Source: Loxodes magnus (lineage: Eukaryota > Ciliophora > Karyorelictea > Loxodida > Loxodidae). From it: 64,000 nucleotides of DNA. The notes under the pieces were generated by a model. The model was not told the DNA's origin. It saw only the letters and a list, made by a program, of their open reading frames with translations, and did no database searches. Positions 5,230 through 61,068 of the stretch are shown piece after piece. Where the stretch lies: NCBI GenBank assembly GCA_946699065.1, contig CAMPDV010000216.1:310001-374000 (forward strand), written 5' to 3'. The position numbers were made by a program, and so were the translations under genes. Position 1 is the stretch's first letter. Every line of letters begins with the position of its first letter.

Positions 5230-6301
5230 TGGAAAATGAAACAAAGCAGAGGAGTTTGATGATTAATAAGTTAAAAATATGTAAAGAGTTTCGAAAGCGA
5301 ATCACTCATGTACAGGCTACTAGGTAAAAATAAAAAAGAAATAAAACTACCATGAAAGAAAAAAGGAGAGCCATATAGTCAAATTCTTTTTTGCTTCCTT
5401 CTTCTGAAGCTTTTTACTCTTTTTCTTCTTTTTTAAGTTGAAGTAATAAATTAGTGAATGTTATATCACTAGAAAATCATTCTTGACTTTATTGAGATCT
5501 TTAAGTGCTTTCTTCACTGATAGTGCTTAGACTGGAAAATGAGCTTTAATTTTATAAAGGTTAAGTGCTATTTGCTTTTCTAATTCTTTCATTCACTTAT
5601 TCTAGGGGTACTTAGCTACCTTTTACCAAGACTTATATCTAAGGTATGTTTCTCAAACCGTTTAATTTTATTTTTTCTTTAGGCTTTTTTGTTTAAGTGT
5701 AAGGAGTAGTCCATTATGAAGTCATAAATTTTTATCAATCTTATGCTTCTTATTATTCCTTTGTTATCAAGCTTGTATTGCCAATTTTTGTTTCTAATTC
5801 GCTCTATTTTTATTATAAGAATACTTAAACTTTATTAGATGCCTTTTTTTAATTAACACCTTGTGAGTTATTCAGACTAGACTAGCCTAAATTACTTCTT
5901 TTTCTAGGGGCTAAATCAAAATTATTTGAGATAGATCTCATAATTTAGCTTTGCTTGTTCATGCTTTGATTTATATTCTTTAAATTACCTTTAAAAAGTT
6001 GATCTGAAATTTTAACCCTTTCATTTTGGGCCTTATTGTCACCATCTTACCAATCATCACTAATTTACCGCATCTTTAAATGCCATAAATTCTAAGTTTC
6101 AATACTCTCAAAGTTTTTCTATTCCACCTTACTCTTAAGCTTTTGCAAGGATTCCTTCTTCTCCTAACTCGTCCGTAACCAGCACATCTAGTCTTAGTTA
6201 TCCAATAAAAGTTTATTTTTCTTACCCTCTAATTCCAAACTTTTCTAATATTTTTCTACATTTATGCATTTTAGTCCTTCACCTGAATCTTGCTTCCACA
6301 T
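5230..6301 (-). CDS. Membrane protein with Gln/Ser/Lys-rich N-terminus, convergent partner, copy A
   Basis: Family not recognised. Starts at the ATG complementary to 6,299-6,301 and reads open for about 330 codons under the TAR=Gln, TGA=Trp code, with one frame kept from the start to the membrane segment. The N-terminal ~310 residues are hydrophilic. They include HLKMRQISDDW, which resembles HLKVKRILDKW of the plus-strand gene of the same unit, and a Ser-rich block ending in SSQEWFSSD-type sequence (TGA for W). An acidic EEGSKKE stretch then leads into a strongly hydrophobic segment with YFYLVA near 5,310-5,375. Copies B (18,763) and C (61,068) keep the same frame to this point. The C-terminal part and stop are not resolved; coding may continue to lower coordinates, where it meets the plus-strand gene. 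Confidence 0.7.
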
Positions 6302-8478
6302 TTGTTATAAAGAAAAAATGCTTACAGCAATTTAAATCTCACTGAAGGTTTAATTAAATACATAAATAATAAAAAACCCTTGACTAACTAAATGCTCAAT
6401 ATGGAGTGTAAATTAAAGGTAACTTAATTATTAAACATTCATATTGAATCAAAGTATGCTAGTAGCTATCATCATAGAGAGTGATATCATGTTGTCAATA
6501 AATGGCTAAGAGAATATTACAAGCATTTTGAGTAGACTGTAAAAGGAATATTTAAGGTAAGTAGTATTTTGAGTCGATTCATTCGCTAGGATGATAAACA
6601 ACAGATGTAAAATATGATTTCTTGTCACGCAATGAGTATTAATAGAATGACTAAGAGAGATAAAGAGATAAAGAGATATCATAACTAGTTAAATTAACGA
6701 CCCAAAGCTTTAGGAAATAAAAAAGTTGATACTTGTAACTGGTGAGGGTTATAAAATATAGGGTCAAAATTTCGAGCAAGGGAAGGAACATTTAACTACA
6801 CCAACTGAACATTATATGAATAATATTAGAGAGGCATATTAGTAAGAAAGAGATCCTGATGATGCTTAAGGATAAAACTGTTCTATTAAGAGATTTCATT
6901 AAAATTTTATTTATTCTGTATTGGTTTTATGTCAGTTATATAATTAAGTGATATCAACGTTTTAGAAATTAATTTATAAGAGTATTGAAACAGAATACTC
7001 TAGTAAATGATGACAGAATCTTCACTGTGAATTTAAGAGTAATTTTATTATTGATAATGATAACTTATAGTGCTTATGAAAAATATGACGATTTGCTTAA
7101 TAGCAAGAAACTTTTGTCTTGCTATTATTGCAAATCAAATTTTGACAAATTATCTTGTCAAATATGAAAATCAACGAATTTTAAAATGAGCTATATTCTA
7201 CTCATTACAAAAGTGTAGTCTAAAATCATTCTTACATTTCTTTTTGTTAATTCCCTAAATAGAAATACAAGCTTAACTAATTTCATCTTATGATATTTAA
7301 CTCCTCTTTTATATCTTATAAGCATTAAATGCATTTCATATGGCTTTTATTCTTTAAAGCTATTTTTTCTTTCAGTTTGCTTATAATTTGTCTTAATTGT
7401 ATCGAATATTCACCATATAATATATTAATTAGATCTCTATTTACTACTTTGAGAGCATTTTACGAAGCTTAGTAAAAAAATAGATTTTCTTATTCTTTAA
7501 ATTTTTAGATGAAATATTAGTTCTAATACCTGCATTTTCTTGTTAATAAGGTTTAGATTATGATTTAATACAGACATATAAGGTTAACTTAGGTTTTGTA
7601 AATAAAGGTATTTGATTTAAATTTATTTGATGGTTAATATGACTATGAATAACTGACTCTCTAGCAGAATTATTTAGAAAATCTCTTTAACTACATGTGA
7701 AGGCTAATTTCTATTTTAATTTTACTTTAATGAAGAAGATTCTTCAAACATAATGCTTCAACATATCAACCCAGTAATGCAGGTAGCAAGACCCTATATG
7801 AAATGTGAGATGATTTGGCGAGTTATGAAAAATACTACTATCAAACCGAGCCTTTAAAAATAAACCCTTTACTATTTTTCCAGAAACTTAGAAAAGATTA
7901 TAAATTTCTTTGTTGGTGATAAATCAAAAAGTATGAATTACTTATCCATTTAATTAATAATTTAAATATTATAAGATAAGCATTATCAAGATATAATAAA
8001 ATGTAAGCTTAGCTTATCCATAAGTATTAGCTAATTATTAAAAGATTAATTATTATTTATGCTAGTTACTATTAATTTACCCTAGTCAATAGCTATACTT
8101 TTGGAACCATAGTATCATCTTGAAGTTTTCCTTGCCGTTTCTTTCTATTTTCTTTTAAGCTTCTTATAATAGATTTTTCTGAAATAGTCTATTAGTTAGC
8201 TAGTAGACAATATATTTCTTACTAATATACTTATTTAATTATATCTAATAATAGTAGCTTTATTACTAGATACTTAATTAAATACCATTGTCTAAATAAT
8301 CCTATTTAATTATTAGCTATATATCATTATTTTCTTTTCCCTATGCAAGCAGATAATTTATCTGCTTTTTCTATACCTTCAATATAGGAATTACTAGTCC
8401 TAATACTCTGCTATTTATCAGGTTTATTATAGTTGCTTTTAATAGTAAGCCAGAGTTATTTAATCTACTCCTGATAAA

Positions 8479-17689: not shown

Positions 17690-18763
17690 AGTTTTAAATT
17701 AGAATATTAAAAAAATGAGGAGTATGATGACTAATAAGTTAAAAATATGTATAAGTGTTCGTAAGCGAATCACTCATATACAGGCTACTAGGTAAAAATA
17801 AAATAGAAATAAAATTCCTAAACAAGAAAGCAAGAAAGCCACATAGTCAGATTCTTTTTTGCTTCCTTCCTCTGAAGTTTCTTTCTCGTTTTCTCCTTCA
17901 TTATTTTGAAGCAATAAATTAGAGAATGTTATATCACTGGAAAATCTTTCTTAACTCGACACAGATATTGAAGTGCTAACTTCACTAATAGAACTTGGAC
18001 TAGAAAAAGAGCTTTAATTTTATAAAGGTTAAGTGATATCTACATTCCTAATTCTTTCATTCTCTTTTTCTCGGGGAAAAAAAACATTTTTTGCCAAAAC
18101 TTATTTTTTAGGTATGTTTCTCAAATCTGTTAAGATTTTCTTTGGCTTTTTTGTTTAACTGTAAGGATTAGACCATTATTAAGTCATAAACTTTTTTCAA
18201 TCTTATGCTTCTTATTATTCCATTGCTATTAAGCTTATATTTCCAACTTTTGCTTCTAGTTTGATTCATTTTTATTATTATAGTGCTTAAATTTTGTTAG
18301 CTGACTTTTTTTAATTAATATCTTGAGAGCTACTTGAATTAGACTAGCCTTAATTACTTCTTTTATTAGGAGTGGAATCTGAATCCTTTGAGATAGAACT
18401 CTTAATTTAGCTTTGCTTATTTATTGTTTGATTAAGACTCTCTAAATTTCCTATAAAAGACTAATCTGAAACTTTAAACCTTTTATTTTAGATCTTACTG
18501 TCTACATCATACCAATCATTACAAATTTATCGCATCTTTAAATGCTATAAGTTCTAAGTTTCAGCACCTTTGAAGCTTTTCTATTCCATTTTAATTTTGA
18601 GCTTTTGCTCGCAGTCTTTTTCCTCATAACTTGTCCATAACCTGCACGTCTACCCTTATTTACCCAAGGAAAGCTTCTTTTTTTTACCTTCTGATCCCAA
18701 GCTTACCTATTTTCTTTCTACAGATATTCGTTTTAGACATTCATCTGAATCCTGCTTCCACAT
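17690..18763 (-). CDS. Membrane protein with Gln/Ser/Lys-rich N-terminus, convergent partner, copy B
   Basis: ATG complementary to 18,761-18,763, starting MWKQDS as in copy A. The frame is open for about 340 codons with many TAA/TAG (Gln) and a few TGA (Trp). Ser-rich stretches such as SNSSSSQD occur, followed by an acidic segment and a hydrophobic helix with FYFYLVA. After the helix it continues VACIWVIRLRTL, in the same frame as copy A's VACTWVIRFRNSL, so A and B agree where copy C is one base short. Charge pattern and membrane helix suggest a membrane-anchored protein with a large N-terminal cytoplasmic region. Family unknown; the 3' end is not resolved. Confidence 0.7.
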
Positions 18764-32059: not shown

Positions 32060-33371
32060 AACTTCAGTAAAAATTCACTGCTTGAGTAAGTCTAAACCTA
32101 TTTGACAAAAGAAATAATTAAAAAAAGGATAAATTTTAGTAATAAATCATAAACTACCTTTATGAAATTGAAAAGTATTAATTAAAGCATGATTAGAAAA
32201 ATTCTAATGTGGAAAAGCAAAAATGATGTAAAGAAGAAAAAAACCAAAATTTGAACACAAAAAATAAGGTTAAAATTGTGATGAGTCTATTAAAGGAGGA
32301 TTCACTTAATCTATTATTATAATTTAAATCAATTTTAAGATTTTAAATTTTATAGTTAATTTTTTTATTAAAAATTCTTAGAACTATTATAAAGTTTAAT
32401 GAACCTATCTTAAAATAACTATCAGTGAAGGTTCAATTTTAAAATTTTAATTTTATTAGAATAAAAGATTAATATTGAGAAAAAGTCTGGAGTTTAGGAT
32501 AAATATCGGTTAACGTAGAACAATTTTTGGTAAGATTTTTTTTGACAATTTTCCTTCTTTCGTAGGTTTCTTCTAGGCTGTACGCAATTCTAAGATCTTT
32601 TTTTAAAGATAGACTCTCAGATAGATATATGTCACTGGGTTCTTATATTTATTCTTCTGGTGTTAATTTTCTATAAATTTTCCCACTAGATCTCAACTTA
32701 GTCTTTAATATAAAAAATTTTTTATCTCTAAACCTTTTCTGCCTTGTCCTGCTTCAGCTCTAATTACTGCCAATATTCTCTTTTTTTATCTTAAAATTAT
32801 TTGCAGCTGAAAAAGTTTTAAATTTTAAGTATATTATTATTACTTTTATAAATTTTCTTTTTAAATTACACTATATAAGAAAAATTTTAAATTAGTATCA
32901 TTATTTCTATCTCAGGGATCCTTAATATTAATAATTTATTTGTTTTTTTAACTTTTTCAACTTTTTTATCATTTTGGTTATTTTTAAGTTATTTTTTATA
33001 ATTAAAACATGATTATTTTAATTTTTTTATCTATTAAACTTTTTAAAGTTTTAGAAAAATGTATTTTTGTCTATTTTTTTAAATATATTTTTATCTCAGT
33101 AATTATTTTATTCTAATTAAAAATGATTTATCCTTTTGATTGATAGTTAATTAACTCTTTCTAATATTTTTAGATTTTAATCAACTAACTTTTTTAGAGT
33201 TATTTTTTTAATGTATTTTTAATGATTTTTTTGGTTTTATAATACTTTGCATATTAAAAACAATGCTATTTTTTGTTGCAATAATTAAAGTAAATTTAGA
33301 TAGAATGTTTAATTTAAAACATTTTTATGAGATTTTATATGTAATACTTTTTAATTTAAGAGTTATTGTAT
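32060..33371. other. AT-rich 3' flank of channel gene
   Basis: Very AT-rich sequence between the coding fragment and the end of the channel gene. There is a modestly GC-richer patch near 32,540-32,770 but no frame with a recognisable motif. Confidence 0.4.
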
Positions 33372-36300
33372 TTAGGACTTTTTACTTAGCATCCCAATAA
33401 TTGAGTCCAATTTTACTTCAAGAGAGTCCATCTTTTGATCAATAGAGTTAGTTTGAACTTTAAGATGGTCAACTTCCCTCATTTTATCCCCAATTGAATT
33501 CATCTTTACTTCAAGAGAGTCTAATTTATTAATCTTTCCATTGATAGAATTAGTTTAAGTCTTAAGAATCTCCATTTCTTTCATTTTTTCCTCAATAGAA
33601 TTCATCTTTCCTTCAAGAGAATCCAGTTTGTTAATATTTTTATCAATTTTTTCGTTTATTTTATCGTCAGACTTTTTGATGCATTCTCTTACATCAGCAA
33701 CTTTTCCTTCCCATCCAAAGTTATCTTCTTAGTAATAATTATCACATATATGAAGATATTGCTCTTTATTTTTTGGACTCCATAGTGAAAAGATCTGCTC
33801 TATCTCAAAAATAACTTCAGTCATTTCTCGATAATCATAGTACACTTGCTAAATTTAGAACTCATCAAAAGAATCACCTAGAATTGAGATGATCATATTA
33901 AGCATTAGTATTACATTTAAAATAACTGCTAAGAGGAATGTAGTATACATTATATCCAAACCATCTCTATCAAAAACTTCTGAATCTCCTGTTAATAAGT
34001 CAAAAGAGGAAATCCAGACGTTTTTAAATGAAACTTAATCACCCTTTGCTGTAATATAAAGCAGGCCAAAAGCAAATGTAGTATAAACCATTATAGAAAG
34101 GAAATATCTTATTTTGTAAAGGGAATCTATTATCAGACTTATGTAATATCTTGTCTAAGAAAATGCTCTAAAGCCTGTAATTCCACGTAATACGTTTAAA
34201 AGTAGAACAATCCAATTAAATGTATCTATTTTGATATCACTAATGCAAAAGCAGATCCATGGAATCATACAGATAATTCTACAAATGTCTATTATATTCC
34301 AAGCATTCTTAAAATATTCTACTCTTGTTACTTTAATTTGAAGCAATTCCCAAGTAAGCAAAATAACATTTACGAACACTAATAAAACCAAGGCAAGGTA
34401 AAAGAATCAAAAGGGTTTAATCAGCAAGATAACAATAAGGAATAAATTTAGTCATATTAAACAAGAAGTAAAAAGGATTCATTATCATAGTTTGCTTCAT
34501 TTTAAATTAATATAACTTCTTATTATCTTATGCTTGTATAAGTCTTTATCTTAGGAGTTTAAAAAAGATTGTAATAATTCAATGCTTTAAGTAGAACCTG
34601 CGACAGAAGGTAATTTGAACCAAGAAGTAGATATTTTAAGATGCTCTTTAGTTAAATCAGTCGTTTATGACTAAGTGTCAAGAGTTTTGTCACCTTCTTA
34701 ACTTAATTATTTTTAAGAAGTTAAAGGTAAATCTTCCTAAAAAAGAGAGAAGCTTTACACAAACCAGTCATCAAACTTGATATGCTAATCTTATTCAATA
34801 TAAAGAAAGTCACGTAGGATTTTATCAAAGTAAAGCTGTTTATTAAGATAGGGACTCAAAAAAGTGGAAGAATTTTAAATGATTAATGAGAAATCCAGTT
34901 ATAGAGATAAATATGAAGCTCTATTTTAAAAATCACTTGAATCAAATTAAGACAAAAGATCTAACAACAAATCAGTAGTACTCTAATGTTGGTATGCAAT
35001 TGAGTAAAATAAAGGAGAATGACCAAAAATGTCAGTACTTAACTAAAGTTTAGAAATTTAGGAGAACATTTTTTTAATAACATCAGATTTTCCTAGAAAA
35101 CAAGCGAAATGGAGAGGAGTGAAGTCAAATTAAGTTAATCTGACGTTTCATTAAGGAATTTGATCAAATATATCTGATACAATGAAAGTCCAAGTGCTAA
35201 AATAAGAAACAAGAGAAACATTCTACAAAGGAATAATGTATAAGCCTCATAGAAAGCAGGAAATATTTGAAAATCAATCATACTAAAATTCAGGGTTATT
35301 AAATATTTTTTTATGAGTTTAGGGGTTTCAAAGTTTGATAGTGTTGTCTTTTGAAGAACTTGCAAGTATAGATATGCCGGGACTGAAAGCTACGAAGGTG
35401 ACAGAGTCTGAATGTCCTTAGAGAGTGGCAATTTCTTTATGCGTTTCTAGGTTTCAAAGTTTTACTGTTTTGTCATATGAAGAGCTAGCAAGTATAGATT
35501 TGTCGGGACTGAAAGAAACACAAGTTACAGATTTTTCATGTCCTTATAGAGTGACGATTTCCTAATGAGTTTAAAGGTTTCATAACTTGATAGTGTTATC
35601 TTTTGAAGAGCTAGCAAGTATAGATCCGTCGGAGTTGAAAGTAACATAGGTAACAATGTCTTAATGTCCTTCAAGGGTGACAATTTCCTAATGATTTTAG
35701 AGGTTTCAAAGCTTGATAGTATTGTCTTTTGATGAGCTAGCAAGTATGGATTCGTCGGGACTAAAAGCTACGCAGGTAACACAATCGTAATGTCCTTCAA
35801 GGGTGAAGATTTCTTAATTAGTTTTGAGATTTCAAAGTTTTATAGTTCTGTCTTTGGAAGAGCTTGCGATTGTTTAACCATTAGGACTAAAAGCAACATA
35901 GGAAACAGAATCTTAATGTCCTTCGAGAGTAACAATTTCTTTATGAGTTTCTAGGCTTCAAAGTTTGATTGTAGTGTCTTTTGACGAGCTAGCGAGTGTA
36001 GATCCACTAGGACTGAAAGTAACACTCGTAACAGACTCTAAATGTCCTCAGAGAGTGACGATTTCTTAATGAGTTAAGAGGTTTCAAAGTTTGATAGTAC
36101 AGTCCTTTGAAGAGCTAGCGAATATAAATCCATCGGGACTGAAAGCTTCACAGGTAACTAAGTCTTAATGTCCTCAGAGTGTAATAGATTCTTTTTAATT
36201 TTATAGACTTCAAAGTTTTATTGTTTTGTCATCAGAAGAGCTAGCGAGTTTAAATCCGTCAGGACTGAAAGTAACACATGTCGTAGAATTTTAATGCCCT

Positions 36301-38036
36301 TTGAGAGTAACGATTTCTTAATTATTTTAGAGATTTCATAACTTGATAGTGCAGTCTTTTGAAGAGCTAGCAAGTGTAGTTCCATCAGGACTGAAAGTAA
36401 TACTAGTAACTAAATCTTAATGTCCTTTGAAACTGACGATTTCTTAATGAGTTGCAATGTTTCTAAGTTTTATAGTGTTGTCTTTTGAAGAACTAGCGAG
36501 TATAGATCCATCGGGACTGAAAGTAACACTGGCAACAGATTCTTAATTTCCTTTTAGAGTGATAATTTCCTAATGAGTTTCAAGATTTCAAAGCTTGAAA
36601 GTGTTGTCTTTTGAAGAGCTAGCGAGTGTAGATCCATCGGGACTGAAATTAACACAGATAACAGTATTTTAATGTCCTTTGAGTGTAACGATTTCTTAAA
36701 GATTTTTGGTACTTCAAAGTTTGATAGTAGTATCTCATGAAGAGCTAGCGATTATAGATCCATCAGGACTGAAAGAAACACATGTAATTCAGTTTTAATG
36801 TCCTTTAAGGATAGCGATTTCCTAATACGTTAAGAGGCTTCAAAGTTTGATAGTTCATTCATTTGAACAAGAAGCTAGTATAGATCCATCTGGACTGAAG
36901 GTAACGCAGTTAACATGTTATTAATGTCCTTTGAGAGTGATTATTTCTTAATGAGTTAAGATATTTCAAAGTTTAATAGTGCAGTCTTTCGAAGAGCTAG
37001 CGAGTGTTGATCCATCAGGACTGAAAGCTACACAGGTGACAGAATCTTAGTATCCTTTGAGAGTAACAATTTCTCAGTGAGTTTAAAAGTTTCAAAGCTT
37101 TATTGTATTGTCTTTTGAAGAGCTAGCGAGTGTAAATCCATCGGGACTGAAAGTAACACTGGTAACTAAGTCTTTATGTCCTTAGAGAGTGACAATTTCT
37201 TAATAATTTTAAATATTTCAAAGCTTTATTGTTCTGTCATTTGAAGAACTAGCGAGTATAGATTTATCAGGACTGAAAGTAACGCAGGTAACAGATTCTT
37301 AATGTCCTTTTAGAGTAAAAATTTCCTTATGAGTTTAGAGATCTCATAACTTGATAGTGCAGTCCTTTGAAGAGCTAGCAAGTGTAGATCCGTCGGGACT
37401 GAAAGTGATATAGGTAGCAGTGTCTTAATGTCCTTATAAATTGGCGATTTCTTAATAAGTTTAGAGACTTCAAAGCTTGATAGTGTTGTCTCATGATGAA
37501 CTAGCAAGAATAAATCCGTCGGGACTGAAATGAACACAGGTAGCTATACTTTAATGTCCTTCGAGAGTGGCAATTTCTTTATGAGTTTCTAGGTTTCAAA
37601 GTTTGATTGTAGTGTCATATGAAGAGCTAGCGAGTATAGATTTGTCGGGACTGAAAGAAACACAAGTTACAGATTTTTCATGTCCTTAGAGAGTGACGAT
37701 TTCCTAATGAGTTTAAAGGTTTCATAACTTGATAGTGTTATCCTTTGAAGAGCTAGCAAGTATAGATCCGTCGGAGTTGAAAGTAACACAGGTAACAGTT
37801 TTTTAATGTCCTTCAAGAGTAACGATTTCTTATTGATTCGTAACGTTTCAAAGTTTTATTTTTCTATCTTTTGAAGAGCTAGCGAGTATAGATCCATCAG
37901 GACTTAAAGCAACGCAAGCAACTAAATTTTAGTGTCCTTCAAGAGTGCTTATTTTTTAATCTGCCAAGAGATTTTATTTTAAATGGCTTTTCTTCATTGA
38001 TTCAATTACGTTTTTTATTTATGTATGTTGTTGCAT
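33372..38036 (-). CDS. WD40(21)-ankyrin-TRP-like ion channel fusion protein
   Basis: A 1,554-residue membrane cation-channel-like protein in one uninterrupted frame (4,665 bases, a multiple of three) if TAA/TAG=Gln and TGA=Trp. Start chosen at the ATG complementary to 38,034-38,036 (MQQHT); an in-frame ATG at 37,997 is the alternative. Residues ~20-910 hold 21 WD40 units of exactly 42 residues (FSPDG, LASSSKD, TIKLW), enough for three seven-bladed propellers. An ankyrin-like stretch follows (TPLHFACF, ~971). Hydrophobic helices from ~1,190 include WNIID and LNVLRGITGFRAFS. A pore-like FDLLTGDSE lies at ~1,344, then an S6-type helix ending LNMIISILGDSF (~1,388), resembling the TRPV-style LNMLIALMGET. 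A Leu/Ile/Lys-rich coiled coil fills ~1,450-1,554. The stop is taken as TAA at 33,372. Role inferred: a scaffolded sensory or Ca2+ channel. Flanked by GC-rich elements at 31,565 and 38,716. Confidence 0.9.
35205..37980 (-). repeat. WD40-coding tandem array, 126-bp period, 21 units
   Basis: The Trp-codon complement TCA recurs from 35,328-35,330 to 37,848-37,850 in 20 steps of exactly 126 bp. Units at about 35,462 and 35,588 are nearly identical to those at about 37,604 and 37,730, 17 units away. One unit (near 36,460) has AGA (Arg) instead of TGA at the Trp position. Confidence 0.95.
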
Positions 38037-52321: not shown

Positions 52322-52495
52322 AAGAGTAAGACTGTACTCGTACAGGATCACTTCTATAGGAGATTCTACTCGTTTGCTCCAACAAACGAGACTCCAACCC
52401 AATCTAGGAAGATGATTAACGCACTTTTCCCAGCAGGAGTTATCGATGACGCTAAGGGAAGAAGTGGTTCTGACTAGATAATCAATCTAAACAAA
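52322..52495 (+). CDS. GC-rich coding island, about 58 codons, function unknown
   Basis: A sharply bounded GC-rich segment in AT-rich surroundings. The plus frame reads KSKTVLVQDHFYRRF, then TPTQSRKMINALFPAGV and IDDAKGRSGS, with C- and G-ending codons and only one TAG (Gln). After GSD it passes straight into AT-rich sequence. It could be a single exon, a macronuclear-destined piece in a germline-type sequence, or a transferred fragment. The reverse strand also has an open frame (SSITPAGKSALIIF), so the strand is not certain. No family recognised. Confidence 0.45.
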
Positions 52496-59999: not shown

Positions 60000-61068
60000 T
60001 TGAAATTGGAATATAAAACAAAAATGAGGAGTATGATGACTAATAAGTTAAAAATATGTATAAGTGCTCGTAAGCGAGTCACTCATGTACAGCTACTAGG
60101 TAAAAATAAAATAGAAATAAAATCGCCAAGAAAGAAAGTAAGAAAGCCATGTAGTCAGATTCTATTTTGCTTCCTTCTTCTGGAGTTTCTTTCTCGTTTT
60201 CTTTTTAATTTTGAAGCAATAAATTAGAGAATGTTCTATCACTCGAAAATCATTCTTAACTCGACTGAGATATTGAAGTGCTTTCTTCGCTGATAATGCT
60301 AAGACTGGAAAATGAGCTTTAATTTTATAAAGGTTAAGTGCTATTTACTTATCGAATTCTTTCATTCACTTATTCTAGGGGCACAAAGCTATCTTTTGCC
60401 AAGACTTATTGCTTAGGTGTGTTTATAAAATCTGTTAAATTATTTTCCTTTAGCTTTTTTGTTTAACTGCAAGGAATAAACCATTATGAAGTCATAAATT
60501 TTTTCCAATCTTATGCCTCTTATTATTCCATTGCTATCGAGCTTATATTGCCAACTTTTGCTTTTAGTTTGCTTTATTTTTATTATTAGAGTGCTTAAAC
60601 TTTGTTAGCTGGCTTTTTTTAATTAATATCTTGAGAGCTACTCGAATTAGACTAGCCTTAATTACTTCTTTTATTAGGAGTGGAATCTGAATCCTTTTAG
60701 ATAGATCTCTTAATTTAACTTTGCTTATTCATTGTTTGATTAAGGCTCTCTAAATTTCCTATAAAAGACTGATCTGAATCTTTAAGTCTTTCAATATAGA
60801 ACGTTCCGTCAGCAGCATACCAATCATCGCAAATTTATCGTATCTTTAAAGGCTATAAGTTCTAAGTTTCAGCACCTTTGAAGTTTTTCTATTCCACCCT
60901 ACTTTTAAGCTTTTGCTCGCAGTCTTTTTCCTCATAACTCGTCCATAATCTGCACGTCTACCCTTATTTACCCAAGGAAAGCATTTTATTCTTACCTTCG
61001 GATCCCAAACTCACCTATCTTCTTTCTACAGATATGCTTTTTAGACATTCACCTGAATGGTTGCTCAT
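60000..61068 (-). CDS. Membrane protein with Gln/Ser/Lys-rich N-terminus, convergent partner, copy C
   Basis: ATG complementary to 61,066-61,068 (MSNHSGEC, where A and B start MWKQDS). The frame is open for about 340 codons and has the most balanced composition of any reading in the unit: VSLGSEGKN, DDWYAADGTFY, SNSSSSQDINQKK, FVPLEQVNERIR and an acidic ETPEEGSKIESD before a hydrophobic helix with FYFYLVA. A one-base deletion relative to A and B right after the helix (GTAGCTG versus GTAGCCTG) changes the downstream frame, so this copy may be truncated or decayed there. The similarity to the plus-strand partner (SER-rich region, W-containing motif, acidic lead into a helix) suggests that both belong to one family. 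Confidence 0.7.

Follow-up and report, generated by a model that had tools for sequence, protein, structure and literature searches.

The window analysed here is a 64,000-nucleotide stretch from the ciliate Loxodes magnus (assembly GCA_946699065.1, contig CAMPDV010000216.1, positions 310,001 to 374,000 of the forward strand, read 5' to 3'), and a minus-strand gene within it appears to use all three conventional stop codons as sense codons. The explanation that best fits the data, and that we hold with high confidence, is that TGA encodes tryptophan and TAA and TAG encode glutamine inside this predicted WD40-repeat channel gene, and that the family to which it belongs stops at a terminal UAA. 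UAA is likely a second codon with dual meaning in Loxodes, a fixed stop in this family and a frequent glutamine codon upstream, which would place the code between NCBI translation tables 27 and 28. The use of TGA for tryptophan is already known for L. magnus, whose macronuclear assembly (706 Mbp) has been published with table 27 and TGA as tryptophan or stop (PMC11441545). The new point is comparative evidence suggesting that UAA also ends Loxodes genes, including the one in the window. The gene and its repeat array are located as follows.

33375..38036, minus strand: coding region of 1,554 codons, predicted to encode 21 WD40 repeats, a weak ankyrin match, an ion-channel domain and a coiled coil.
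35305..37947, minus strand: WD40 unit of 126 base pairs (bp) repeated 21 times in tandem, identified with Tandem Repeats Finder, translation and Pfam.
36462..36464, minus strand: unit with AGA in place of TGA at the tryptophan site, identified by translation.

Translation from an ATG at 38036 to a last codon at 33375 yielded 1,554 codons that remain open with TGA as sense and TAA/TAG as glutamine. The gene contains 35 TGA, 10 TGG, and 79 TAA or TAG codons (114 reassigned codons together). TGA makes up 2.3% of its codons, compared with a mean UGA share of 0.120% given for Parduczia (PMC4967479), which makes the gene a striking case of a code with context-dependent stops. The 21 WD40 stretches score 796.6 bits against a Pfam cut-off of 27, and the codon for the conserved tryptophan is TGA in 20 of the 21 units and AGA in one. 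Seven more TGA codons occur in the array outside the conserved site (37493, 37076, 36857, 36791, 36737, 36176 and 36050), and a further eight lie downstream of it, from 35276 to 34409. All 27 tryptophan codons of the array are TGA; every TGG of the gene lies outside it. Because the units arose by duplication, the 20 TGA codons at the conserved site are not 20 independent events, and the near uniformity of the array may reflect units copied from one another, a change from TGA to TGG being silent. The first-pass annotation had reported the 20-to-1 pattern, the use of TGG elsewhere in the gene, and a single frame of 1,554 codons conditional on sense TGA, and all three were reproduced. The span it had assigned, 35205..37980, does enclose the array, but the gene reaches further in both directions.

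The L. magnus genome (705,730,643 bases, 7,843 contigs) was searched for relatives of the channel part of the gene. An alignment of the window gene with 29 loci (30 sequences, two of which duplicate a third, leaving 28 rows) has seven columns that are tryptophan in every row, and the only codons in them are TGA and TGG. Three of these columns are all TGG, one is all TGA, and three are mixed (TGG:TGA ratios of 23:5, 19:9 and 3:25). The same exchange was found in an unrelated family, where the tryptophan of the tubulin motif HWYTGEG is encoded by TGG in four loci (L094, L095, L096 and L098) and by TGA in L099. A motif search recovered 158 WD40 tryptophan sites in 32 sequences, with TGA at 150, TGG at 7 and AGA at 1; this count leaves out seven loci of the window gene or its near-identical copy, includes L010 of that copy, has two loci (L008 and L017) that overlap by ~600 bases, and draws on many close copies. 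The ratio of nonsynonymous to synonymous substitution rates (dN/dS) between the channel part of the window gene and 26 paralogue rows ranges from 0.22 to 0.35, and is 0.51, on very few changes, against the near-identical L010. With this exchange, the selection on the channel part, and the WD40 profile scores given below, the earlier claim that internal TGA codons of this gene encode tryptophan was upheld.

Two alternatives to this assignment were weighed. UGA is read as cysteine in Euplotes, and the AGA (arginine) codon at the tryptophan site of one unit could hint that TGA stands for another residue here (cysteine, arginine, glycine or serine). Alignment of the repeats to the WD40 profile, a check that the first-pass annotation had proposed, gave 813.7 bits with TGA as tryptophan, 713.8 as arginine, 689.7 as glycine, 683.7 as cysteine and 681.9 as serine, a lead of 100–132 bits. 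On these scores the four residues were rejected, and since TGA also exchanges with TGG alone at the all-row tryptophan columns, we give this possibility next to no weight. The array could instead be a decayed pseudogene, its TGA codons being ordinary stops spread through duplication of units. Tandem duplication can multiply a mutation and many copies exist in the genome, but the frame is intact over 1,554 codons and the dN/dS values are low. We judge this idea refuted by the columns in which TGA and TGG alone exchange, and regard it as extremely improbable.

Some observations fit tryptophan less well. Two columns that are tryptophan in at least half of the 28 rows also hold other codons, one having 14 TGA plus GGA, GTA, TTA and gaps, and the other 11 TGA and 7 TGG plus AGA and TTA. 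At three of the seven TGA positions of the array outside the motif, tryptophan is unusual for WD40 repeats. Many of the sequences compared are related and some are near-identical, so the counts are not independent. In the actin, tubulin and HSP70 families, the top-ranked matches (44, 25 and 31, respectively, many of them near-identical copies) have no TGA inside the match, and TGA does occur in lower-ranked ones; that highly expressed genes avoid UGA is only a guess. A trend along the gene, with TGA falling and TGG rising from 5' to 3', was considered because the array has 27 TGA and no TGG and the last seven tryptophan codons of the gene are all TGG. It was dropped, as TGA is kept in 25 of 28 paralogue rows ~200 codons before the end.

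TAA and TAG interchange with CAA and CAG at 8 of 13 glutamine columns of the channel alignment, and the glutamine codons are mixed at 10 of the 13 columns that are glutamine in at least half of the rows. Exchange at these columns supports glutamine as the meaning of TAA and TAG inside the gene. The terminal region, where the reading of TAA appears to change, contains three codons of interest.

33372..33374, minus strand: TAA directly after the conserved C-terminus, proposed true stop (family comparison).
33363..33365, minus strand: codon +3, TAA in the window gene, proposed second or backup stop site (TGA in 28 of 50 family loci).
33096..33098, minus strand: first in-frame TGA past the conserved C-terminus, 92 codons downstream.

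Fifty loci (the window gene and L010 to L058) were examined out of 128 channel matches in the genome. They include near-identical copies: L033 to L035 are identical over the channel part, L018 to L023 are close, and L010 nearly matches the window gene. The survey of terminal codons admitted only TAA, TAG and TGA, and all 50 loci passed with none lost to the filter. TAA directly follows the conserved C-terminus in 49 of the 50 loci, and the remaining locus, L039, has TGA there. There is more variation at codon +3, with 28 TGA, 21 TAA and one ATA (L043). The next in-frame TGA was located with a narrower motif that missed L033 to L035 and L039, and lies 92 codons on in both the window gene and L010. 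In a distant subfamily (B; L041 to L054, 14 loci) it lies at +8 in L043 and 21–77 codons on in ten loci, and three loci have no in-frame TGA within the available stretch (17 codons in L044, and 32 and 134 codons in the others). The segment of the window with the highest coding composition ends at 33375; its training set took in the second half of the gene.

The DNA past the terminal codon does not keep a reading frame. Gaps whose length is not a multiple of three make up 430 of 514 pairwise gaps in the 3' flank of subfamily A (16 rows) and 151 of 183 in that of subfamily B (ten loci). Upstream, the rows of subfamily A align without any gaps; those of subfamily B show 32 nine-base gaps and, where the left edge of the alignment is ragged, 30 five-base gaps. 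The first frame-shifting gaps appear ~25 bases past the terminal codon in A and ~45 bases past it in B. Mean identity in subfamily A is 0.87 upstream versus 0.74 downstream. This loss of frame leads us to infer a UAA stop, and translation would end at the UAA directly after the conserved C-terminus. For the window gene, the terminal TAA is most likely its stop.

Codon usage near the end of subfamily A (36 rows) gives further support. The glutamine of the last coiled-coil repeat, at codon -27, is CAA in all 33 rows that have it; at equivalent glutamines nearer the 5' end, TAA accounts for 34 of 38 cases. The final 30 codons contain 50 CAA but not a single TAA, TAG or TGA. UAA may resemble UGA, being sense far from the end of the messenger RNA (mRNA) and a stop near it, as the comparison of family members suggests. 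The first-pass annotation had taken TAA and TAG to be glutamine, which holds inside the gene and most likely fails at the terminal TAA.

Gene ends were read by eye in five other families (histone, actin, tubulin, HSP70 and EF-hand). Of 77 ends read, 74 could be assigned. Twenty of 31 histone matches were read, giving 17 TGA ends, two H3 variants with TAA and one end that was not reached. The two variants end in LTDM-TAA, followed by TGA five codons on, in L064 and in LTDM-TAA-TAA-TAA in L067, and their sister L065 ends in LTDV-TGA. TGA ended 10 of 10 actins (96 matches), 9 of 10 tubulins (at least 150 matches), one having no clear end, and 11 of 11 HSP70 genes (68 matches); in two HSP70 loci, L100 and L109, it stands immediately after a TAA. 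EF-hand ends were TGA in 24 of 26 cases (at least 150 matches), the others being unclear in L127 and TAG-TAA in L129.

Several of these data count against a UAA stop. TGA ends 71 of the 74 assignable genes and TAA or TAG only three, so that only a small share of these conserved genes would stop at UAA. In subfamily B the downstream DNA is as alike as the upstream DNA (0.89 versus 0.90). Thirteen TAA codons occur in the 14 loci of that subfamily at -11 to -20 from the terminal TAA, within a conserved stretch; nearness to the end alone would consequently not separate sense from stop. With in-frame TGA codons at +8 and +5, L043 and the H3 variant L064 could both end at UGA. The published L. magnus account names UGA as the sole stop and describes a depletion of sense UGA and UAA codons ~20 codons ahead of it (PMC11441545).

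Under a strict table 27, the terminal TAA would be one more glutamine codon, many paralogues would end at the +3 TGA, and members with TAA at both sites would run on. The published code description, the +3 TGA in 28 of 50 family loci, and the predominance of TGA ends elsewhere all favor this possibility. It requires that loss of the stop became fixed many times over: in the window gene together with its near-identical copy, in three further subfamily A lineages (L040; L033 to L035; L055), and in 13 of the 14 loci of the distant subfamily, with frame-shifting gaps downstream. The sole replacement of the terminal TAA in 50 loci is TGA, which if sense would be a change from glutamine to tryptophan, and the same swap between TAA and TGA recurs in the two H3 variants. 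We consider UGA as the only stop unlikely.

A code with both UGA and UAA stops departs from the known systems in different ways. The first-pass annotation had suggested a code of the Condylostoma or karyorelict type, which fits the identity of the assembly as L. magnus. As in karyorelicts assigned to table 27 (Loxodes and Parduczia), UAA and UAG are glutamine, and UGA is tryptophan internally and a stop terminally (PMC11441545, PMC4967479). Departing from that table, in which UGA is the sole stop, UAA is here inferred to end the WD40-channel family and two H3 variants. Condylostoma magnum, described under table 28, likewise uses all three codons as sense internally and has UAA as a stop near the mRNA end (PMC4967479). 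In contrast to that species, most of the conserved Loxodes genes checked stop at UGA; of the three stops in table 28, UAA and UGA are indicated here by comparison, and for UAG there is one unclear candidate (L129). Blastocrithidia also has UAA as both sense and stop and UGA as tryptophan (PMC12153298), but it is a trypanosomatid in which UAR encodes glutamate.

If UAA also stops translation in Loxodes, gene models that allow UGA ends alone would overrun and mis-annotate whole families. Paralogues that differ in having TAA or TGA at one terminal site would then be natural experiments on how the ribosome tells sense from stop. A literature search for karyorelicts together with stop UAA found no paper. 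The abstract of a 2022 karyorelict-code paper in Peer Community Journal reportedly allows for stop UAA in a small minority of transcripts, and this statement, if accurate, would anticipate the UAA-stop result.

Tryptophan transfer RNA (tRNA) genes were sought with a pattern that allowed either anticodon. This gave 128 genome matches, and all of the 100 that were listed carry CCA. Two arrays stand out among those listed, one at C67:482313-491196 (48 genes, ~187-bp period) and one at C148:155454-169190 (51 genes, ~241-bp period). In one gene from each array, positions 27-43 are unpaired (A.C and T.C), leaving a 4-bp anticodon stem; unlike these, the CCA gene L113 (C110:470055-470170) has a full 5-bp stem. 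A 4-bp-stem tRNA-Trp with CCA has already been reported in Loxodes and is described for Condylostoma magnum as well (PMC13092985). UGA is probably decoded by this amplified tRNA-Trp with a normal CCA anticodon and a shortened stem, a role drawn from the literature on such tRNAs and matched here by gene shape alone. The tRNA-Trp with a UCA anticodon that the first-pass annotation had proposed to look for was not found among the nuclear matches listed for one form of pattern; with up to one mismatch that pattern gave 203 matches, including the CCA genes as one-mismatch matches (reversed control, 23), and two exact matches on C421 were not tRNA-like by eye. Another tRNA type is also present in many copies, with 63 scored of 42,786 first-look candidates. 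A search for the eRF1 family gave three matches, one of them of nearly equal score and 35 kb from a match on C196. The first match fetched (C2) we take to be the surveillance factor pelota and not eRF1, and L141 (C196:19650-20200) is presumably eRF1, with the NIKS motif kept.

The protein is, as predicted from its domains, a WD40, ankyrin-like channel and a member of a large family under purifying selection. Two domains follow the WD40 part, together with coiled-coil-like Pfam matches.

34956..35135, minus strand: ankyrin-repeat-like stretch (Pfam Ank_2, E value 3e-4, under Pfam's own cut-off).
33849..34472, minus strand: Ion_trans (channel) domain (Pfam E value 3e-6, 27.0 bits versus a cut-off of 25).

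The Ion_trans score makes the protein a candidate ion channel, possibly of the TRP-like kind. Among the 60 of 159 PDB sequence matches listed, only the ankyrin part is covered, and the NOMPC channel is included. When viral contigs were searched with a linker of 125 residues from the gene, no relative was found, and a literature search on ciliate WD40, ion-channel and TRP-channel proteins returned no paper on this protein, judged by title and abstract.

In the genome, 23 channel matches with equal or almost equal scores lie on C151, C552, C1186, C1807, C1924 and other contigs, several of them ~35 kb apart. This suggests that large tandem or mobile segments carry near-identical copies; one of the 23 was read (L040, at its 3' end). 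Within the window, three similar coding-like segments (17813-18763, 60121-61032 and 5336-6340; for example TCRLWTSYEEKDCEQKL) look like an interspersed repeat family, and a U3 small nucleolar RNA gene lies on the plus strand at 52328-52479 (Rfam RF01848, 73 bits).

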